Positions 6,180 through 57,570 of a stretch of DNA of 64,000 nt are shown one piece after another. The notes under the pieces are model-generated. The model searched no databases. It had not been told where the DNA came from and saw only the letters and a list, made by a program, of their open reading frames with translations. The DNA is from Gammaproteobacteria bacterium (lineage in GTDB: Bacteria; Pseudomonadota; Gammaproteobacteria; GCA-001735895): positions 62,001-126,000 of the forward strand of contig JASJCI010000037.1 in the NCBI GenBank assembly GCA_030066085.1, written 5' to 3'. The position numbers and the translations under genes are program-made. Within the stretch, counting starts at the first letter, position 1; each line of letters opens with the position of its first letter.

Positions 6180-8210
<2,031 letters not shown>

Positions 8211-49916: not shown

Positions 49917-50810
49917 TCAGTCGCGGTCCGGGTTCGGTGCGCCATCGGCGATCGGTTTACGCAAGCGCTTCAGCTGCAGCGTTATCAGCGCCACGCCGGC
50001 AATGGCGAGGCAACCCCCGAGCATAATCTTCGGCGTCAGGGACTCGCCGAGAAAAGCGATGCCGCCCGCCACCGACGTCACCGGCAGCAACAGCAGGAAG
50101 GGCATGACCTGGTTGACGCTGTAGAGGCCGAGCAGACGATACCAGAGGGCGTATCCGAGCGCGGTCATGACCAGGCCGAGGTAGATCACCGCACCCCAGG
50201 CGGCGATCGACGCGGTCCGGATCTGCTCGACCTGATCGTGTTCCAGCAGCCACGAGGCGAGGAACAACTGCGGCGCCGCGAACAGGGCGACACCGCTGAG
50301 CAGTCTGAATCCGCCGAGGTTGCCGAGTTGCTTGATCATGATCTGGCCGACGGCCCAGGTAAAGGCGCCGCCGATGACGAGGAACGCGTAAACCAGCTCC
50401 CCCTGCAGCTTCGGTTCGCCGATAATCAGCACCGCGCCGACGAACGCGACGACCACGCCGAGCGCCTGGCGAGCCGTAATCCGGTCGCCGAGTACGAGCC
50501 AGGCGAGCAGCAGCCCGAACGGCACCTCGAGCTGCACCAGCAGGGCGGCGGTTGACGCGTCGATACCGCGCAAACCGTGGAAGGTCAGGCTGTACTGCAG
50601 GGCGGCGCTGACCAGCGATATCCAGAACAGCGAGCGGTACACGCCCGCGGGAGGTCGGAAAAACCAGACCAGGCACAACGCGGTCAGGGTGAAGCGCAGC
50701 GCCATCAGCAGGATGGGCGAGAAGTGCGACATCGCCGCCTTGGCGACGATAAAACCCATGCCCCAAATGACCGCCACCGCGACTGCGCTGGCGGTATCGA
50801 CGGCCTTCAC
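49917..50810 (-). CDS. EamA-family (drug/metabolite) transporter
   Basis: The 297-residue protein consists of ten hydrophobic helices in two EamA repeats (AVAVIWGMGFIVAKAAMSHFSP at the start, and a second repeat from about residue 145, beginning GGAFTWAVGQIMIKQ). Members of this family export amino acids and metabolites across the inner membrane. It is separated from the BCCT operon by a 70-bp gap on the same strand and from the asparaginase by 75 bp. The substrate cannot be read from sequence. Confidence 0.9.
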   Translation of the reverse strand: MKAVDTASAVAVAVIWGMGFIVAKAAMSHFSPILLMALRFTLTALCLVWFFRPPAGVYRSLFWISLVSAALQYSLTFHGLRGIDASTAALLVQLEVPFGLLLAWLVLGDRITARQALGVVVAFVGAVLIIGEPKLQGELVYAFLVIGGAFTWAVGQIMIKQLGNLGGFRLLSGVALFAAPQLFLASWLLEHDQVEQIRTASIAAWGAVIYLGLVMTALGYALWYRLLGLYSVNQVMPFLLLLPVTSVAGGIAFLGESLTPKIMLGGCLAIAGVALITLQLKRLRKPIADGAPNPDRD

Positions 50811-50881: not shown

Positions 50882-51334
50882 TTACTCCCGCACCACGGTC
50901 ACGGAACAGCCCGCGTGGCGCGCCACCCGCGCCGAATTGGGTCCGAGCAGGAAGTCGGCCAGCGACGGCCGGTGCGCACCCATGACGATGTGGTCGATTT
51001 TCAGGTCCTTGGCGGCCTCGACGATCTCGCGGTAAACGGTACCGTTCTCGACAACGACGCCGGCCTGCATTTCCTTCGGTACATGGGCGTTGGCGATCTT
51101 TTGCATATCCCTGGCCGCTTCGTCTTTCCATTCCTGCAGCGGGTAGTCGGTGGAACCGTGCATCTCGCCGCGTATGGCGTAACGCTGGTCGATGCCGGGC
51201 GTAATACCGGGAATCACCGTCATCAGGTAGATCCTGGCATCCTTGACGCCGGTCGCCATTTCGACGGTTTTCTGAATGACCATCTCGGACAGGCTGTCGT
51301 CCTCGAGGTCGATCGGTGCTAGGTAGTTTGGCAT
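50882..51334 (-). CDS. Universal stress protein (UspA/TeaD-like)
   Basis: The 150-residue protein has a single Usp fold with an ATP-binding G2xG9xG(S/T)-like signature in IVMGAHRPSLADFLLGPNSARV (key MGAHRPS and GPNS). It starts three bases after the binding-protein gene and is the third gene of the BCCT operon. In TRAP osmolyte transporters a Usp (TeaD) encoded in the same operon modulates uptake, so a similar regulatory part for the BCCT system is likely. Confidence 0.92.
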   Translation of the reverse strand: MPNYLAPIDLEDDSLSEMVIQKTVEMATGVKDARIYLMTVIPGITPGIDQRYAIRGEMHGSTDYPLQEWKDEAARDMQKIANAHVPKEMQAGVVVENGTVYREIVEAAKDLKIDHIVMGAHRPSLADFLLGPNSARVARHAGCSVTVVRE

Positions 51335-51337
51335 GAC

Positions 51338-53257
51338 TTATTTCCCCCCTGATTCCGGATCCGTTTCATAGCCTTCCGGCATCTTGAAATTGGGCGGGCT
51401 GGGCAGGAATATCATCCAGCCGACCCAGACCGTGAACAGGATCATCAGTATGTTGAGTATCGAGATGTCGGCCGCAAACGGCAGTGATTTGTCGACCACG
51501 GTGATTTCCGGCACCAGCGAGCCGTGCACCGGGATTGCGGGGTCTATGACGTCGGTTTCACCGAGCGCGGCGCGAATCGATTCGACCGTGCTGGCACTGA
51601 CCGGGATGGCGGCGCTGGAATCGATGCCGGCGGTACCGGGACCGACTTCGCCCGCGGTTTGCGCGGTCTTGGCCGGGCTGGCCAGCACCAGCTGCGTGGA
51701 GACACTGGTGACCGCGTTGCCCTGCGACGGGTAACTGCCGCCCGGGATAGTGGCCGGACGAATGAAACTGAAGCGCGCGGTATGTCCGCCCGCGGCCCAT
51801 TCCGACAGGTCGACCAGCTTGTACAGGCCACTGCGCATCAAGCTGCCGATCGATCGTTCACCCTGCGGTGCCATGACGAAAACGGCGTCGTGCTGGCCGC
51901 TTTTCATCGCCAGCAGCTGGGCGCGTACCGGGTCGTCGGAATTGATCACTTCGACCGAATCGGCGAGCCCCAGCGAAGCCAGCAGCATATCGAGTACCTG
52001 CGCCGAGCCGGATCCCTGCGGACCGGTCGAGACCTTGCTCATCGCGGTAATCGAATCGCTGCCGTTGCCGAGTGTTATCAGGTGGGCCGTCTTGTAGCCC
52101 AGCACCGCGAAAGCCTCGGCCAGGCCCTTGCCGGCGGGACCGTCGTCGCCGAGCGCAAAAAAGGATTCCGCACCGACGATCGCCACGCGCGATTCGCCGG
52201 CCGCGAGCGATTCCAAGGGGCCGGCGCTGGCCGATAGCTGCAGGTCGCTGCCGGCAAAACCGGCGCGTACGGCACGCAGGGCGCGCGCGGTATCGATGTT
52301 GCGGCCGATACCGGCATCACCGACCACCGCGATCTTGGCGGCTGTGCTGCCACCCGCACCTTCGGGCAGTAATCCCTTCGAAAAAAGAAAACCGGCCGCG
52401 ACGGTGGCTGCTGACTGGGCGTCGAGATCGACCGCCTTGTTCAGCGCCTGCATATCGGCCGCGGTTATCGAGCCGCCGAGCTTTTCCAGTACCTCGCGCA
52501 AGCCCTTCAGGTTGGCGAGGGCGTCGCTGCGCACCAGCGGCGCAACCTGGTAGACCGGGAAAAAGCCGAGATCATCCTCCAGCACTACCAGGTCGTACTC
52601 GGCGATCTGGCCGTCGGTGCCGAACAGTTCGCCGACGTCGGCACTGCCGTCGAGCAGCGCGGAGACGATCTGGTCCTTGCCCTCGGTACCCACCTCGAAC
52701 TCGATGGTACTGCTGCCGGTAATACCGTAACGCCGGTTCATCTGCTGCAGACCGTCGGCGGGACGCTGGGTGAAGTCGTCGTCGACCGCGAAGGTCACCC
52801 CCGAGCGGCCGGCCAGGTCGCTGATCTTGCTAACCCCCAGTTCCGATGCGCGGTCGCGGGTCATGACCATGACATAGTCGTTGGAAAAGCCGAACTTGCT
52901 GGTCATCTCGAGACCGAGCGGCTTGAACAATGACTGCACGGTCGCGGTGGACGCGTCGCCATCGCTGGTCGGCGCCTGGCCGAGAAAGATCAGGCTGGTG
53001 CCGTTGTACTCGGGGTATACGTCGAGTACGTCCTGCTTGACCGCTTCCATGATCTTTTGCGTGGTGCCGAACGGAATACTGCGTTCGACCGGGATACCCT
53101 CGGCTTCGGCCATTTGCGCGATCATTTCGGCGAGAATCATGCTTTCCGCGAAAGGCTTGGCGCCGACACGGAGGCTCTTGCTGTCGCCGCCGCCGCAGGC
53201 GGCGAGCAGGGAAGCGAGGAGCGCGAGTGCCGAGAATTTCATTATCGATTTCATCAT
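51338..53257 (-). CDS. Lipoprotein with fused OpuAC-type and TAXI/NMT1-type solute-binding domains and C-terminal membrane anchor
   Basis: The 639-residue protein starts with a lipoprotein signal (ALLASLLAACGGG, lipidated Cys21). A glycine-betaine-binding OpuAC-like domain follows (LRVGAKPFAESMILAEMIAQ region, YPEYNGTSLIF, about residues 29-290). Next comes a second domain resembling TAXI/NMT1 binding proteins (STGPQGSGSAQVLDMLL, IPGGSYPSQGNAV, about 310-550). A Pro/Ser-rich linker leads to one membrane helix (about 600-622). It starts 12 bp after the BCCT gene with an AGGAGG site. Binding proteins normally serve ABC or TRAP systems, so this pairing with a BCCT carrier is remarkable. Confidence 0.9.
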   Translation of the reverse strand: MMKSIMKFSALALLASLLAACGGGDSKSLRVGAKPFAESMILAEMIAQMAEAEGIPVERSIPFGTTQKIMEAVKQDVLDVYPEYNGTSLIFLGQAPTSDGDASTATVQSLFKPLGLEMTSKFGFSNDYVMVMTRDRASELGVSKISDLAGRSGVTFAVDDDFTQRPADGLQQMNRRYGITGSSTIEFEVGTEGKDQIVSALLDGSADVGELFGTDGQIAEYDLVVLEDDLGFFPVYQVAPLVRSDALANLKGLREVLEKLGGSITAADMQALNKAVDLDAQSAATVAAGFLFSKGLLPEGAGGSTAAKIAVVGDAGIGRNIDTARALRAVRAGFAGSDLQLSASAGPLESLAAGESRVAIVGAESFFALGDDGPAGKGLAEAFAVLGYKTAHLITLGNGSDSITAMSKVSTGPQGSGSAQVLDMLLASLGLADSVEVINSDDPVRAQLLAMKSGQHDAVFVMAPQGERSIGSLMRSGLYKLVDLSEWAAGGHTARFSFIRPATIPGGSYPSQGNAVTSVSTQLVLASPAKTAQTAGEVGPGTAGIDSSAAIPVSASTVESIRAALGETDVIDPAIPVHGSLVPEITVVDKSLPFAADISILNILMILFTVWVGWMIFLPSPPNFKMPEGYETDPESGGK

Positions 53258-53269
53258 GTCTCGATCCTC

Positions 53270-54817
53270 CTAGGCCTGGTCCGTATCGGCGTCGGCATCG
53301 GGATGCCGCACCTCGGTGTGGATTTCGCGCACCATCGGATCTTCGCGCACGACGCGGAAAAAGGCCGCGAGCTGCATGATGATGATGAAGGTGAACGGGA
53401 TCGCGCCGGTGATCGCCATCGCCTTGGCCACCTTGACACTCTCGGTGACGATGGTGGCGACGGTGATGCCGGTGATGATCAGGCCCCAGGTCAGCTTGAG
53501 CCTGGTCTGCGGGTTCAGGCTGCCGCGACTGGTCATCATGCTGATGACGAAGGTGCCGGAATCGGCGCTGGTCACGAGGAAGATGAAGATCAGGCAGACC
53601 GCGAGGAAGTTCAGCAGCGTGGTGCCGGGGAAGTACTCGAAGAACGCGAACAGGGCACCCGCGACGTCGGCGAACACTTTTTCGGTGATGCCGCCCGCGC
53701 CGAACATTTCGATGTGGATCGCGGCGCCGCCGAAGGCGGCGAACCACAGCATCGATACGATGGTCGGTACGCCAACCACGTAGATGACGAACTCGCGAAT
53801 CGTGCGGCCGCGGCTGATACGCGCGATGAAGATGCCGACGAAGGGCCCCCAGGCCAGCCACCAGATCAGGTAGGTCAGGGTCCAGCCGTGGAACCAGTTC
53901 CAGGAACCGGCCGGCGTGTAGGCATAGGTCTTGAACGACATCGGGATCAGCTGGATCAGGTAGTCGCCGATCGCGTAGATGAAGGACTGGAACAGGTAGG
54001 CCGTCGGGCCACCGAACAGCACCACCAGCAGGATCAGGATCGCGACGATCATGTTGATGTTACTGAGGATCTTGATGCCCTTGTCGACGCCGGTACAGGC
54101 CGACAGCAGGAAACAGACCGTCATGACCGCGATGATGATCATGCTCATGGTCACGTCCTGGTTGGTGTCGAACACCGCGCTCATGCCGGAGCGCACCATC
54201 AGGGTACCCATCGCCAGCGAGCCGGCGAGGCCGAAGATGACCGCGATGACCGCGAGGATATCGGCGGTGTTGCCGACCTGGCGCAGGGTGCCGGGGCTGA
54301 AAACGTTCTTGAAACCCACCAGGATCGGGGTTGATACCATCGACGGCAGCTTCAGGCGAAACGTGAAGTAGGCGATAACCAGCGCACAGCAACCGTAGAT
54401 CGACCAGGCGTGCAGGCCCCAGTGGAAATTGGTGATGACCATCGAATTACGCGCCGCCATCGCGTTTTCGGCTTCACCGACGGGCGGGGTCGCGAAGTGG
54501 TAGATCGGCTCGGCCACACCCCAGAACAGCAGGCCGGAACCCATGCCGGCGGCGAACAGCATCGCGACCCAGGAACCGGTGCTGAATTCCGGTTCGTCGG
54601 TATCGGCGCCGAGCTTGATGTCACCGTACTTGGAAAATGCCATACCCCCCATGATGACGAGGAACGCGGTACACAGCGCGAGGAAGTACCAGTCGAGCGC
54701 GGTGAGCGAATAGTTGACCAGCCACTGGGCCGAACCGGTCATCGAATCGGGGTCGGCGACACCCCAGATAGCGATGGCCGCGCACAGGACCAGCGAAACG
54801 AGCATTACGGTATTCAT
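53270..54817 (-). CDS. BCCT-family betaine/carnitine/choline-type transporter
   Basis: The 515-residue protein has twelve predicted helices. It shows the BCCT signatures AAGMGSGLLFWGVAEPIYHF and the long aromatic helix WNWFHGWTLTYLIWWLAWGPF (key FHGWTLTYLIWWLAW), then FIARISRGRTIREF. Such carriers import quaternary amines or DMSP using Na+ or H+. The C-terminal tail is acidic and short, unlike BetP's osmosensor tail. It is the first gene of the operon BCCT, binding protein, Usp. A run of seven G lies in its leader just upstream of the ATG. Confidence 0.95.
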   Translation of the reverse strand: MNTVMLVSLVLCAAIAIWGVADPDSMTGSAQWLVNYSLTALDWYFLALCTAFLVIMGGMAFSKYGDIKLGADTDEPEFSTGSWVAMLFAAGMGSGLLFWGVAEPIYHFATPPVGEAENAMAARNSMVITNFHWGLHAWSIYGCCALVIAYFTFRLKLPSMVSTPILVGFKNVFSPGTLRQVGNTADILAVIAVIFGLAGSLAMGTLMVRSGMSAVFDTNQDVTMSMIIIAVMTVCFLLSACTGVDKGIKILSNINMIVAILILLVVLFGGPTAYLFQSFIYAIGDYLIQLIPMSFKTYAYTPAGSWNWFHGWTLTYLIWWLAWGPFVGIFIARISRGRTIREFVIYVVGVPTIVSMLWFAAFGGAAIHIEMFGAGGITEKVFADVAGALFAFFEYFPGTTLLNFLAVCLIFIFLVTSADSGTFVISMMTSRGSLNPQTRLKLTWGLIITGITVATIVTESVKVAKAMAITGAIPFTFIIIMQLAAFFRVVREDPMVREIHTEVRHPDADADTDQA

Positions 54818-55060: not shown

Positions 55061-55411
55061 TTATTCGCGTGCGGCGATGATGCCAATTTCCACCAGCAGG
55101 TCCGGCGTCGCCAGGCGGGCCTCGATGCAGGCCCGGGCCGGGGCATGACCCTCGGGCACCCAGGCGTCCCAGATCTCGTTCATCTGCGCAAAGTGGCCGA
55201 TACTGGCGAGCCAGACCTGGGCACTCAGGATGCGGGTTTTGTCGGATCCCGCTTCGGCGAGCAGGTCGTCGATCTTCTGCAGCACCTGGCGAGTCTGCTC
55301 CTGCACGTCGGCGGCGGGATCGGCGGCTACCTGGCCGGCCAGGTAAATCGTATCGCCGTGAACCACGACCTGGCTCATGCGCTGGCCGGTATGATGGCGG
55401 GTAATGGACAT
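55061..55411 (-). CDS. RidA-family (YjgF/UK114) protein
   Basis: The 116-residue protein has the RidA fold motifs VVHGDTIYLAGQVAAD, QTRQVLQKIDDLLAEAGSD, and the active-site Arg in APARACIEARLATPDLLVEI (key PARACIEARL). RidA deaminates reactive enamine/imine intermediates released by PLP enzymes. Many operonic relatives work in specific amine catabolic routes. It lies 26 bp downstream of the M24 gene on the same strand and thus probably acts in the same pathway. Confidence 0.93.
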   Translation of the reverse strand: MSITRHHTGQRMSQVVVHGDTIYLAGQVAADPAADVQEQTRQVLQKIDDLLAEAGSDKTRILSAQVWLASIGHFAQMNEIWDAWVPEGHAPARACIEARLATPDLLVEIGIIAARE

Positions 55412-55437: not shown

Positions 55438-56595
55438 TTACCGATCCACGGTCAGGATCTTGCGCGGATAATCGGTGATGTATTCGACGCCGGTTTCGGT
55501 CACCACCACCGAATCGCCGATGCGGCCCCCGACATTACCGTCGACACTGATACCGCCGTCGACGGCAAAGGTCATACCGGCCTGCAACACGGTCTGGTCA
55601 CCCTGCTTGAGTTCGGGCGATTCGAGGTAGGCCATGCCGATGGAGCGTCCCGTTCGATAGCCGGTTTGGTAGCCGCGCTCGCGGTAAACCTCGTTGGCCG
55701 CCTCGGCGACCGACTCGGCGGTAACCCCGGGTCGCATCGCCGCGATCGCGGCCTGCTGCGCGTCGATCGCAGCCTGCTGCACCGCGGCGGCTTCGTCGGA
55801 GACCTCGCGGATGAAAAACATGCGGTCGAAGCCGAGCTTGTACTGCTTGAACTGGGCCATGTTGCAAAAACAGAAATAGACCGGGTCACCCTTGGCCAGC
55901 GGCTTGACGCTGGCGCGGCGATGCACCATCGACGTGTCGCGACCGGACTGCATGATCTGCAGGTTATGAATCATCGGCGAGATAAAAGCTTCCCAGCCGC
56001 GCGCGGTCAGGAAACCGGCCGCCTTGCGGGTGCCGGCATCGATTACCGCCAGCGCGGCCTCGTATTCCGGACGGCCTTCGCCGAGTGCACCCTCGGCGGC
56101 GGCCATCATCGCGCCGGCGATCTGGCCGGCCTGTTGCATGACCTCGATTTCTTCCGCTGACTTGATCATGCGCATTTCACCGAGCAGCGGTGCCACGTCC
56201 TGCAGCACCACGCCGGGCATCTGCTCGTCGAGCCAGTTGCGCACGATCGCCGGCAAGGCGGCACGTTCGACCCCGATGCGACCCGGGTCCGAGCCGAGCG
56301 CAGCGGCGAGCACGTTCTCCCAGCGATTGGCGCCAGCGTCTTCCCAGGTCAGCACGTCGTCGACCCAGGTCATTGCCGAGACCATCTCGCTCTCCATCAG
56401 CGGGGTGATCACCTGTGCACCCGAATCCGGGCGCAGCAGCAGGAAGGTCGGCCGGCCGAACTCGACCGACAGGTAGCCCCAGAAGCCGGCGAGGTAGGCG
56501 ATCGAGCTCTCGTCGGTGATGATGGCGGTATCGATACCGGCGTCACGCAGGCGTGACAGGAAGGTGGCGGTGCGCTGGCGAGCCTGGTCGAGCAT
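55438..56595 (-). CDS. M24-family creatinase/ectoine-hydrolase-like enzyme lacking metal ligands
   Basis: The 385-residue protein has a creatinase N-terminal domain (TDESSIAYLAGFWG) and a pita-bread domain. The five metal ligands of aminopeptidase P are all replaced: Asp by Cys242 and Gly255, His by Arg317 (TGRSIGM), Glu by Asp346 and Gly360 (RIGDSVVVTE). The His at 225 (SMVHRRAS), equivalent to creatinase's catalytic His, is kept. Metal-free creatinase and ectoine hydrolase (DoeA/EutD) are the known parallels. The ATG at 56595 has a GGAA site. It sits with RidA and near the BCCT carrier. Confidence 0.88.
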   Translation of the reverse strand: MLDQARQRTATFLSRLRDAGIDTAIITDESSIAYLAGFWGYLSVEFGRPTFLLLRPDSGAQVITPLMESEMVSAMTWVDDVLTWEDAGANRWENVLAAALGSDPGRIGVERAALPAIVRNWLDEQMPGVVLQDVAPLLGEMRMIKSAEEIEVMQQAGQIAGAMMAAAEGALGEGRPEYEAALAVIDAGTRKAAGFLTARGWEAFISPMIHNLQIMQSGRDTSMVHRRASVKPLAKGDPVYFCFCNMAQFKQYKLGFDRMFFIREVSDEAAAVQQAAIDAQQAAIAAMRPGVTAESVAEAANEVYRERGYQTGYRTGRSIGMAYLESPELKQGDQTVLQAGMTFAVDGGISVDGNVGGRIGDSVVVTETGVEYITDYPRKILTVDR

Positions 56596-56802
56596 GGTGT
56601 TTTCCGGCTTACGGGATCGGAGCCACGTGTATATCACAGCCGGACCCGGCAGAACATCGAATTCGGCCGGCCGGCGGTTGCACTGGCAGTCATCCTGTCG
56701 TGGTTGCGCGGCCGTCCCGTACCCGGCTGGCCACGCCGATTGTGCTGGCCTTGCCGCTGCCAGCCGTGTATACCAGTTTAAATGCGAGAGGAAAATGCTG
56801 CG

Positions 56803-57570
56803 ATGAAAGACTGCCTGTTGCCCGCGCCGGCAGCGCAAACGATTCGCTTCGATGCCGGCCGGCACGCGCGCGCCAAACTCGGTTTCGTCCTGCTCGCGAC
56901 CGAGCAGACCGTGCAGGACGATGTCGTGGCGCTGCGCCCGCCGGGGGTGGGTGTACATTTTGCGCGCGCGGCGATAGCGGATTCGATTACCAACGCATCG
57001 CTCGCGGCGCAGGCCGAGCTGCTCGCGGATTGCGCGGCCACGCTGTTGCCGGACGGCAGTCTCGATGTCGTCTGCTACGCCTGCACCTCGGGCAGTCTCG
57101 TGATCGGTGAGGAGCGCGTATTCGCCGAGCTCAAACGCGGTTCCCCGGGGGCCACGCCAACATCGCTGATCAGCGGGGTGATCCGCGCGTTACGGGCCCT
57201 CGATGCGCGGCGCATTACCATCGCAACCCCGTATCTCGACGAAGTCAATCAGCGCGAGGTTGAATACCTCGAAGCGGCTGGCTTCGAGGTATTGTCGATA
57301 CGGGGGCTCAACCTCGAACGTGACAGCGACATGGTGCGCGTGACGCCGGACTATATCGCCGAGTTTGCGCTGGCGCAGGATCATGTCGATGCCGACGCGA
57401 TCTTCGTCTCCTGCGGCGCGCTGCGTACGCTGGACGTTATCGGGGAGATCGAACGCAGGGCCGGTAAACCCGCTGTCTGCAGCAACCAGGCGATGATCTG
57501 GGATTGCCTGCGACTGGCCGGCATCGACGACCGGATCGAGGGTTATGGCCGCCTGCTAGCGACGCTGTGA
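56803..57570 (+). CDS. Maleate isomerase / EutA-like Asp/Glu racemase superfamily protein
   Basis: The protein of about 255 residues carries the two catalytic cysteines of the superfamily in VCYACTSGSLVIG (about residue 100) and FVSCGALRTLDVI (about 210), plus TSLISGVIRAL and ATPYLDEVNQREV. It is of the maleate cis-trans isomerase/arylmalonate decarboxylase/EutA type. EutA occurs in ectoine-utilisation clusters next to an M24 hydrolase, as here, where the M24 gene is divergent across about 200 bp. An in-frame ATG at 56782 is an alternative start. Confidence 0.85.
   Translation: MKDCLLPAPAAQTIRFDAGRHARAKLGFVLLATEQTVQDDVVALRPPGVGVHFARAAIADSITNASLAAQAELLADCAATLLPDGSLDVVCYACTSGSLVIGEERVFAELKRGSPGATPTSLISGVIRALRALDARRITIATPYLDEVNQREVEYLEAAGFEVLSIRGLNLERDSDMVRVTPDYIAEFALAQDHVDADAIFVSCGALRTLDVIGEIERRAGKPAVCSNQAMIWDCLRLAGIDDRIEGYGRLLATL

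Follow-up and report, generated by a model that had tools for sequence, protein, structure and literature searches.

Carriers of the BCCT family import betaine-like solutes by means of an ion gradient and are thought to work alone. In a stretch of 64,000 nucleotides from a gammaproteobacterium (contig JASJCI010000037.1 of assembly GCA_030066085.1, positions 62,001 to 126,000; hereafter the window), a BCCT gene is followed by the genes for a two-domain tethered solute-binding lipoprotein and for a universal stress protein (Usp). An earlier reading of this DNA (the original prediction) suggested that this triad is a binding-protein-dependent BCCT uptake system that mimics TRAP transporters. Secondary carriers that work with a solute-binding protein (SBP) are already known as a kind. 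According to Jaques et al. 2025 (PMC12344293), the known examples (TRAP, TTT and TAXI-GltS) are elevators or have been modelled as such; an intrinsic elevator feature may be required for SBP dependence, and further classes would test this proposal. BCCT carriers have the LeuT fold, which is described as rocking (PMC10862720). Because the BCCT carrier has the LeuT fold, the elevator requirement is testable with the present system, and an SBP-dependent BCCT would refute it. Such a system would further mean a high-affinity way of scavenging betaine-like solutes and a different reading of BCCT genes in environmental genomes.

TAXI-GltS of Bordetella pertussis (BP0403/BP0402) consists of a lipid-anchored, multi-domain TAXI SBP translationally coupled to a sodium symporter, whose gene overlaps that of the SBP (PMC12344293). 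The window system resembles it in having a multi-domain, lipid-anchored, TAXI-containing SBP, a symporter gene as partner and no TRAP membrane gene, and in the proposal of an SBP-dependent secondary carrier. However, in TAXI-GltS the carrier is GltS, a modelled elevator, the extra domain is PilO-like and the ligand is glutamate, whereas the window system combines a LeuT-fold BCCT with a betaine-type OpuAC domain. The text read on TAXI-GltS describes no C-terminal helix for its binding protein, whereas one is predicted for the window lipoprotein. By family search the window carrier is a BCCT and not a member of the GltS/ESS family.

TeaABC of Halomonas elongata takes up compatible solutes, and its Usp, TeaD, modulates transport (PMC9006882). 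It too combines an SBP, a secondary carrier and a usp gene, and usp genes next to TRAP genes were noted earlier (PMC11574862). TeaABC is a TRAP transporter with DctQ/DctM-type membrane parts, whereas the window has a BCCT carrier and an SBP with OpuAC and TAXI domains. No DctQ or DctM gene lies beside the lipoprotein gene; the adjacent carrier is the BCCT, and the other neighbours searched encode Usp, EamA, RidA, M24 and asparaginase proteins. The original interpretation is supported, with the addition that TRAP is not the sole precedent, TAXI-GltS having been described in 2025 (PMC12344293). BetP, BetT, TmaT and DddT share the family, the fold, the aromatic box and the GMG motif with the window carrier, but they operate without an SBP, and the SBP-linked carriers form a distinct clade, bar one member whose position is not resolved. 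ProX, OpuCC and OpuBC share the fold and the ligand-site residues of the first lipoprotein domain, but they serve ABC transporters, whereas in the window protein this domain is joined to a second one of TAXI type and to a membrane helix. The suggestion that the system may be undescribed has held: a search of an open-access library, which leaves out most subscription journals, yielded no paper that links a BCCT to an SBP in this way. Within the literature searched, what is new is the fold of the carrier and the joining of an OpuAC to a TAXI domain.

The triad and its parts lie in the window as follows.

53270..54817, minus strand: BCCT carrier, 515 aa (PF02028; predicted LeuT fold)
53258..53269, minus strand: 12-base gap between the BCCT and lipoprotein genes (sequence reading)
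51338..53257, minus strand: two-domain tethered solute-binding lipoprotein, 639 aa (Pfam domains, AlphaFold2 (AF2) model, alignments)
53195..53257, minus strand: lipoprotein signal peptide with lipobox LAAC, residues 1-21, C21 being the predicted lipidation site (C21 invariant in 17 homologues)
52361..53182, minus strand: OpuAC/ProX-type binding domain, residues 26-299 (AF2 model, alignment to 1sw1)
51503..52345, minus strand: TAXI-type binding domain, residues 305-585, limits approximate (structure match, NMT1_3)
51404..51460, minus strand: predicted C-terminal transmembrane helix, residues 600-618, then a short tail predicted to be cytoplasmic (hydropathy, model)
50882..51334, minus strand: Usp, 150 aa, predicted cytosolic regulator (PF00582, alignment)

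The predicted spacings, 12 bp between the BCCT and lipoprotein genes and 3 bases between the lipoprotein and usp genes, hold on the minus strand. The span first given for the system, 51338-54817, ends at the lipoprotein and leaves outside the usp gene (50882-51334) that was described with it. Direct reading of the sequence shows a GGAGG that resembles a ribosome-binding site for the lipoprotein gene and that shares bases with the stop codon of the BCCT gene.

Homologues of the lipoprotein were located in other genomes, and the count took in all full-length ones for which sufficient sequence lay upstream. A same-strand BCCT gene lies directly upstream at all 25 of these loci, so that the observation named beforehand as refuting, a lipoprotein gene away from BCCT genes, did not occur. 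The loci comprise 16 in the genus, two in related Gammaproteobacteria (L031 and L034), one in a distant gammaproteobacterium of another family (L037/L073), and six outside the class: L035 from Paracoccus aminovorans, L036 from Martelella, and L072, L074, L075 and L076 from four further genomes. Lipoprotein identity to the window protein at the distant loci is 58-61% or 32-41%, with the six loci outside the class at 32-41%. Genes outside the triad vary between clades while the triad is kept. The BCCT and lipoprotein genes overlap or abut at four distant loci, with the junctions ATGA (L036 and L075), GTGA (L076) and TGATG (L073); junctions of this type are the usual signature of translational coupling.

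The linkage is also specific. Within the family (41 genomes), 17 genomes have the lipoprotein and 16 an 88-93% identical BCCT; these are the same genomes, the 17th lipoprotein being cut by a contig end, and the other 24 genomes have neither. The more distant BCCTs in these 41 genomes (42% identity or less) never have the lipoprotein alongside. The window genome itself has a second BCCT, which is unlinked. A BCCT profile was also run blind over 337 genomes, all from the class of genome G725, in a survey of the kind originally proposed for finding OpuAC-TAXI fusions. It recovered two carriers at 865-908 bits, the closest ones, that adjoin the lipoprotein and 19 others, at 530 bits or less, without it within 1.5 kb. 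Among plasmid records with a BCCT (n = 1,771), the three best matches, with >50% identity, are linked carriers, and three weaker matches that were inspected have no SBP gene directly adjoining. In the BCCT phylogeny, 12 of the 13 linked carriers fall in one clade with support 100/99. The carrier of L037 is placed near unlinked carriers, in a position that is not resolved, and therefore one or two origins of the linkage are possible.

A relative, genome G014, has the M24, RidA, EamA and asparaginase genes in order, but both the BCCT and the lipoprotein genes are gone, and only a shortened usp relic is left. This locus is a natural deletion of the BCCT-lipoprotein pair. The relic (L085, 7220-7447) lies between the RidA and EamA genes, and its nucleotide-binding motif is altered, LLTPNS in place of LLGPNS. 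Single absences are weak evidence, because the assemblies of such genomes are drafts. We conclude that the BCCT-lipoprotein linkage is old, specific and conserved beyond chance. Functional coupling of some kind between the carrier and the lipoprotein is very likely.

Could the lipoprotein work for an ABC or TRAP transporter whose genes lie elsewhere, its place in one operon with the BCCT being incidental? In favour of this, the first of its domains has homology to the binding proteins of ABC systems, and the genome has ABC-type betaine transporters. However, no full-length homologue apart from a BCCT was found in the genomes searched, and the two genes are present or absent jointly. Furthermore, by open reading frame (ORF) reading, the window genome has two more strong OpuAC proteins, both of which adjoin ABC genes of their own, whereas the lipoprotein adjoins the BCCT. 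Neither in the window nor at those distant loci that are annotated does an ABC permease or ATPase gene adjoin the lipoprotein gene. This explanation is already strongly disfavoured, and we regard it as most improbable.

The domain assignments for the lipoprotein have been borne out. Pfam finds OpuAC at residues 27-291 (E = 1.7e-46) and NMT1_3/TAXI at residues 407-528 (E = 3.2e-8, 34 bits against a cut-off of 27). The whole-protein TAXI model of NCBIfam, TIGR02122, does not reach its cut-off (41.5 bits vs 84.35); the second domain thus appears by sequence to be a divergent TAXI relative rather than a TAXI protein proper. Structure prediction of the lipoprotein alone, proposed at the outset, was performed with AF2 from 15 homologues, with two plasmid-record rows excluded from the alignment, and gave a model with a mean predicted local distance difference test score (pLDDT) of 80.8, which resolves two complete binding domains. 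In this model, residues 26-299 match ProX/OpuCC-type solved structures with Z of about 31-35, and residues from about 305 to 585 match TAXI proteins with Z = 21.5 (1us4) and 21.2 (8s4j), at a root-mean-square deviation of 3.1-3.5 over 250-256 residues. The predicted anchors at both ends are also present. The lipobox LAAC has its C21 invariant among 17 homologues. The hydrophobic helix near the C-terminus spans residues of about 600-618 by hydropathy (596-616 in the model) and recurs at the matching place in 17/17 homologues, with a hydropathy of 2.2-2.7 over 19 residues.

The ligand site of the OpuAC domain is largely intact. We take the ProX ligand positions to be K13, Y63, T66, Y111, R149 and Y214, plus the fourth cage tyrosine Y190. 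In the alignment to 1sw1, the first six align with K34, Y84, T87, Y128, R165 and Y236 of the lipoprotein, which are invariant in the 17 homologues at identities to the window protein down to 31%. The position of Y190 is F212 in the lipoprotein and varies among homologues, so that 6/7 positions are identical to ProX. The two domains differ strongly in conservation, with 41/274 invariant positions in the OpuAC domain and 13/226 in the TAXI domain. Its much higher conservation makes the OpuAC domain the likely ligand domain, and this suggests that the TAXI domain serves mainly in docking or positioning. It is also conceivable that the two domains bind two ligands, the OpuAC domain the transported betaine and the TAXI domain a second solute, for the same BCCT or as a signal. 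The fold of the TAXI domain is complete, and motifs like those of TAXI proteins persist in its second half. However, its low conservation argues against this, as does the fact that the half with the VcGluP ligand residues cannot be aligned by sequence, the alignment beginning past residues such as Y45 and Q93. We consider a second ligand quite unlikely.

By its sequence and predicted fold, the carrier is an ordinary BCCT with the LeuT fold. PF02028 matches residues 4-493 with 530 bits (cut-off 27), and the carrier scores about 290-310 bits against BetT, BetP and TmaT, with 31-35% identity to BetP and TmaT. The carrier model (pLDDT 75.6) matches BetP and TmaT with Z of about 43-45, and other LeuT-fold carriers come next with Z of 18-21. 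The aromatic-box residues W133, W138, Y141, W319, W320 and W323 and the motif G91-M92-G93 are invariant; we take them, with the help of the alignment, to correspond to residues of BetP. The carrier thus retains a complete betaine-type substrate site of its own. Note that it has a leucine at the apparent position of T246 of BetP (FGLAGS vs FGTACS), which we take to be a Na1-site residue, and therefore its sodium coupling may differ from that of BetP. DddT reportedly also has a sodium coupling unlike that of BetP. The linked BCCT of the Paracoccus aminovorans plasmid (L035) is broken in two by a frameshift at about 7516-7522, where the sequence is rich in G, and is not annotated as a BCCT; this may be a sequencing error or recent decay, which are indistinguishable.

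The third gene of the triad matches PF00582 (E = 2.7e-19, 70.5 bits), with the nucleotide-binding-type motif GAHRPSLADFLLGPNS in a conserved alignment. The assignment to Usp therefore stands. The epithet TeaD-like is not supported by the family search, in which the best NCBIfam match is UspF, at a score far under its cut-off; the analogy with TeaD comes from the gene position. The usp gene directly follows the lipoprotein gene at 23 of the 25 loci (at L034 it is cut by the contig end) and overlaps it at L076 and L075.

This proximity bears on a serious rival to solute delivery, in which the lipoprotein is a sensor. Ligand binding in the periplasm would be signalled by way of the C-terminal helix, either to the BCCT or to the Usp, and would gate a carrier that is fed directly from the periplasm. 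The single membrane helix with its short cytoplasmic tail and the neighbouring, sometimes overlapping, usp gene would suit such a role. The carrier site is complete, as in solitary BCCTs, and only a short C-terminal end lies beyond the last helix of the carrier, so partners might regulate it. However, the BCCT-lipoprotein pair persists without a usp gene at L036 and L073, and the cytoplasmic tail is down to a few residues in several homologues. TAXI transporters with membrane-anchored SBPs are, moreover, already on record (Roden et al. 2023, as cited in PMC12344293). On balance we consider the sensor role possible but rather unlikely.

We suggest that a binding-protein-dependent BCCT uptake system is the best explanation, and a reasonably probable one. 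The lipoprotein would sit on the periplasmic side of the inner membrane, held there by its N-terminal lipid and C-terminal helix, and its ProX-type domain would capture a betaine-like zwitterion (a quaternary ammonium compound or related solute) in the periplasm. The TAXI-type domain, near the membrane helix, could dock on the BCCT carrier or position the lipoprotein over it. The solute would then be handed over to the outward-open carrier and imported with ions, presumably Na+ by analogy with BetP, and the cytosolic Usp may modulate the carrier as TeaD does the TRAP transporter TeaABC. The pairing postulated originally is conserved at all 25 loci; dependence of uptake on the lipoprotein, with physical contact between the two proteins, is what we infer. 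Some points weigh against such a system. The complete site means that the carrier could function alone, the TAXI domain is left without explanation if the OpuAC domain already binds, and the usp gene is absent at two distant loci. In addition, the correlation between BCCT and lipoprotein distances (r = 0.965, 18 loci) is expected from joint inheritance alone and is no proof of contact. With these points included, we still think that the lipoprotein probably delivers solute to the carrier. The odds also lean, a little less firmly, towards this being the first binding-protein-dependent LeuT-fold (rocking-bundle) carrier. It would then join TRAP, TTT and TAXI-GltS as a fourth class and would show that a secondary carrier can receive its solute from a binding protein without an elevator mechanism.

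What might the solute be? Three neighbouring genes flank the triad in the window.

55061..55411, minus strand: RidA/L-PSP protein, outside the core unit (family search; absent beside the L031 and L034 units)
55438..56607, minus strand: M24 hydrolase, creatinase/DoeA-like (family and structure comparison)
49917..50810, minus strand: EamA-family exporter-like protein (family search; not kept beside distant units)

An EutA/arylmalonate decarboxylase-like gene lies at 56782-57570, divergent from the operon, with 203 bits to EutA, which is below the cut-off. The M24, RidA and EutA-like neighbours would fit ectoine-, creatine- or betaine-like solutes, and the M24 gene is a possible clue to the catabolism of the solute. 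Among solved structures, creatinase (1chm) is the closest to the M24 protein over its full length; M24 orthologues are also present in relatives without the triad. Ectoine was rejected as the substrate beyond mere possibility, with scores of 98 for the M24 protein against the DoeA cut-off of 613 and 203 for the EutA-like protein against the EutA cut-off of 318. Creatine was also rejected; what we take to be the M24 catalytic histidine is apparently kept, but the presumed acidic ligand residues appear changed, and the M24 gene persists without the triad. At L031 (8526-13664), the triad is followed by genes for an MttB-family methyltransferase, a DAO oxidoreductase, an amidohydrolase and a D-amino-acid transaminase, possibly a betaine catabolic operon. 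The methyltransferase, seen at L031 only, fits a quaternary amine as the solute.

Several further loci are worth noting. A Gemmatirosa plasmid match was rejected as a further linked unit, being by ORF reading an ordinary ABC ATPase with an SBP-permease fusion. The plasmid of Peptoclostridium acidaminophilum (L088) carries sarcosine reductase genes followed by a BCCT gene and then an M24 family gene, like the BCCT-M24 arrangement of the window, with no directly adjacent SBP gene. On the plasmid of Roseobacter denitrificans (L086), the BCCT gene is overlapped by a hypothetical gene of 44 codons, followed by gltS. In genome G022 (L083, 4568-7653) the triad is replaced: next to the M24 gene come genes for a flavin oxidoreductase of the OYE family and for a member of the enolase superfamily. 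Upstream of the triad, a gene with SBP_bac_3 and SLT domains (MltF-like) is present at L031 (1671-3113) and L034 (2585-4120).

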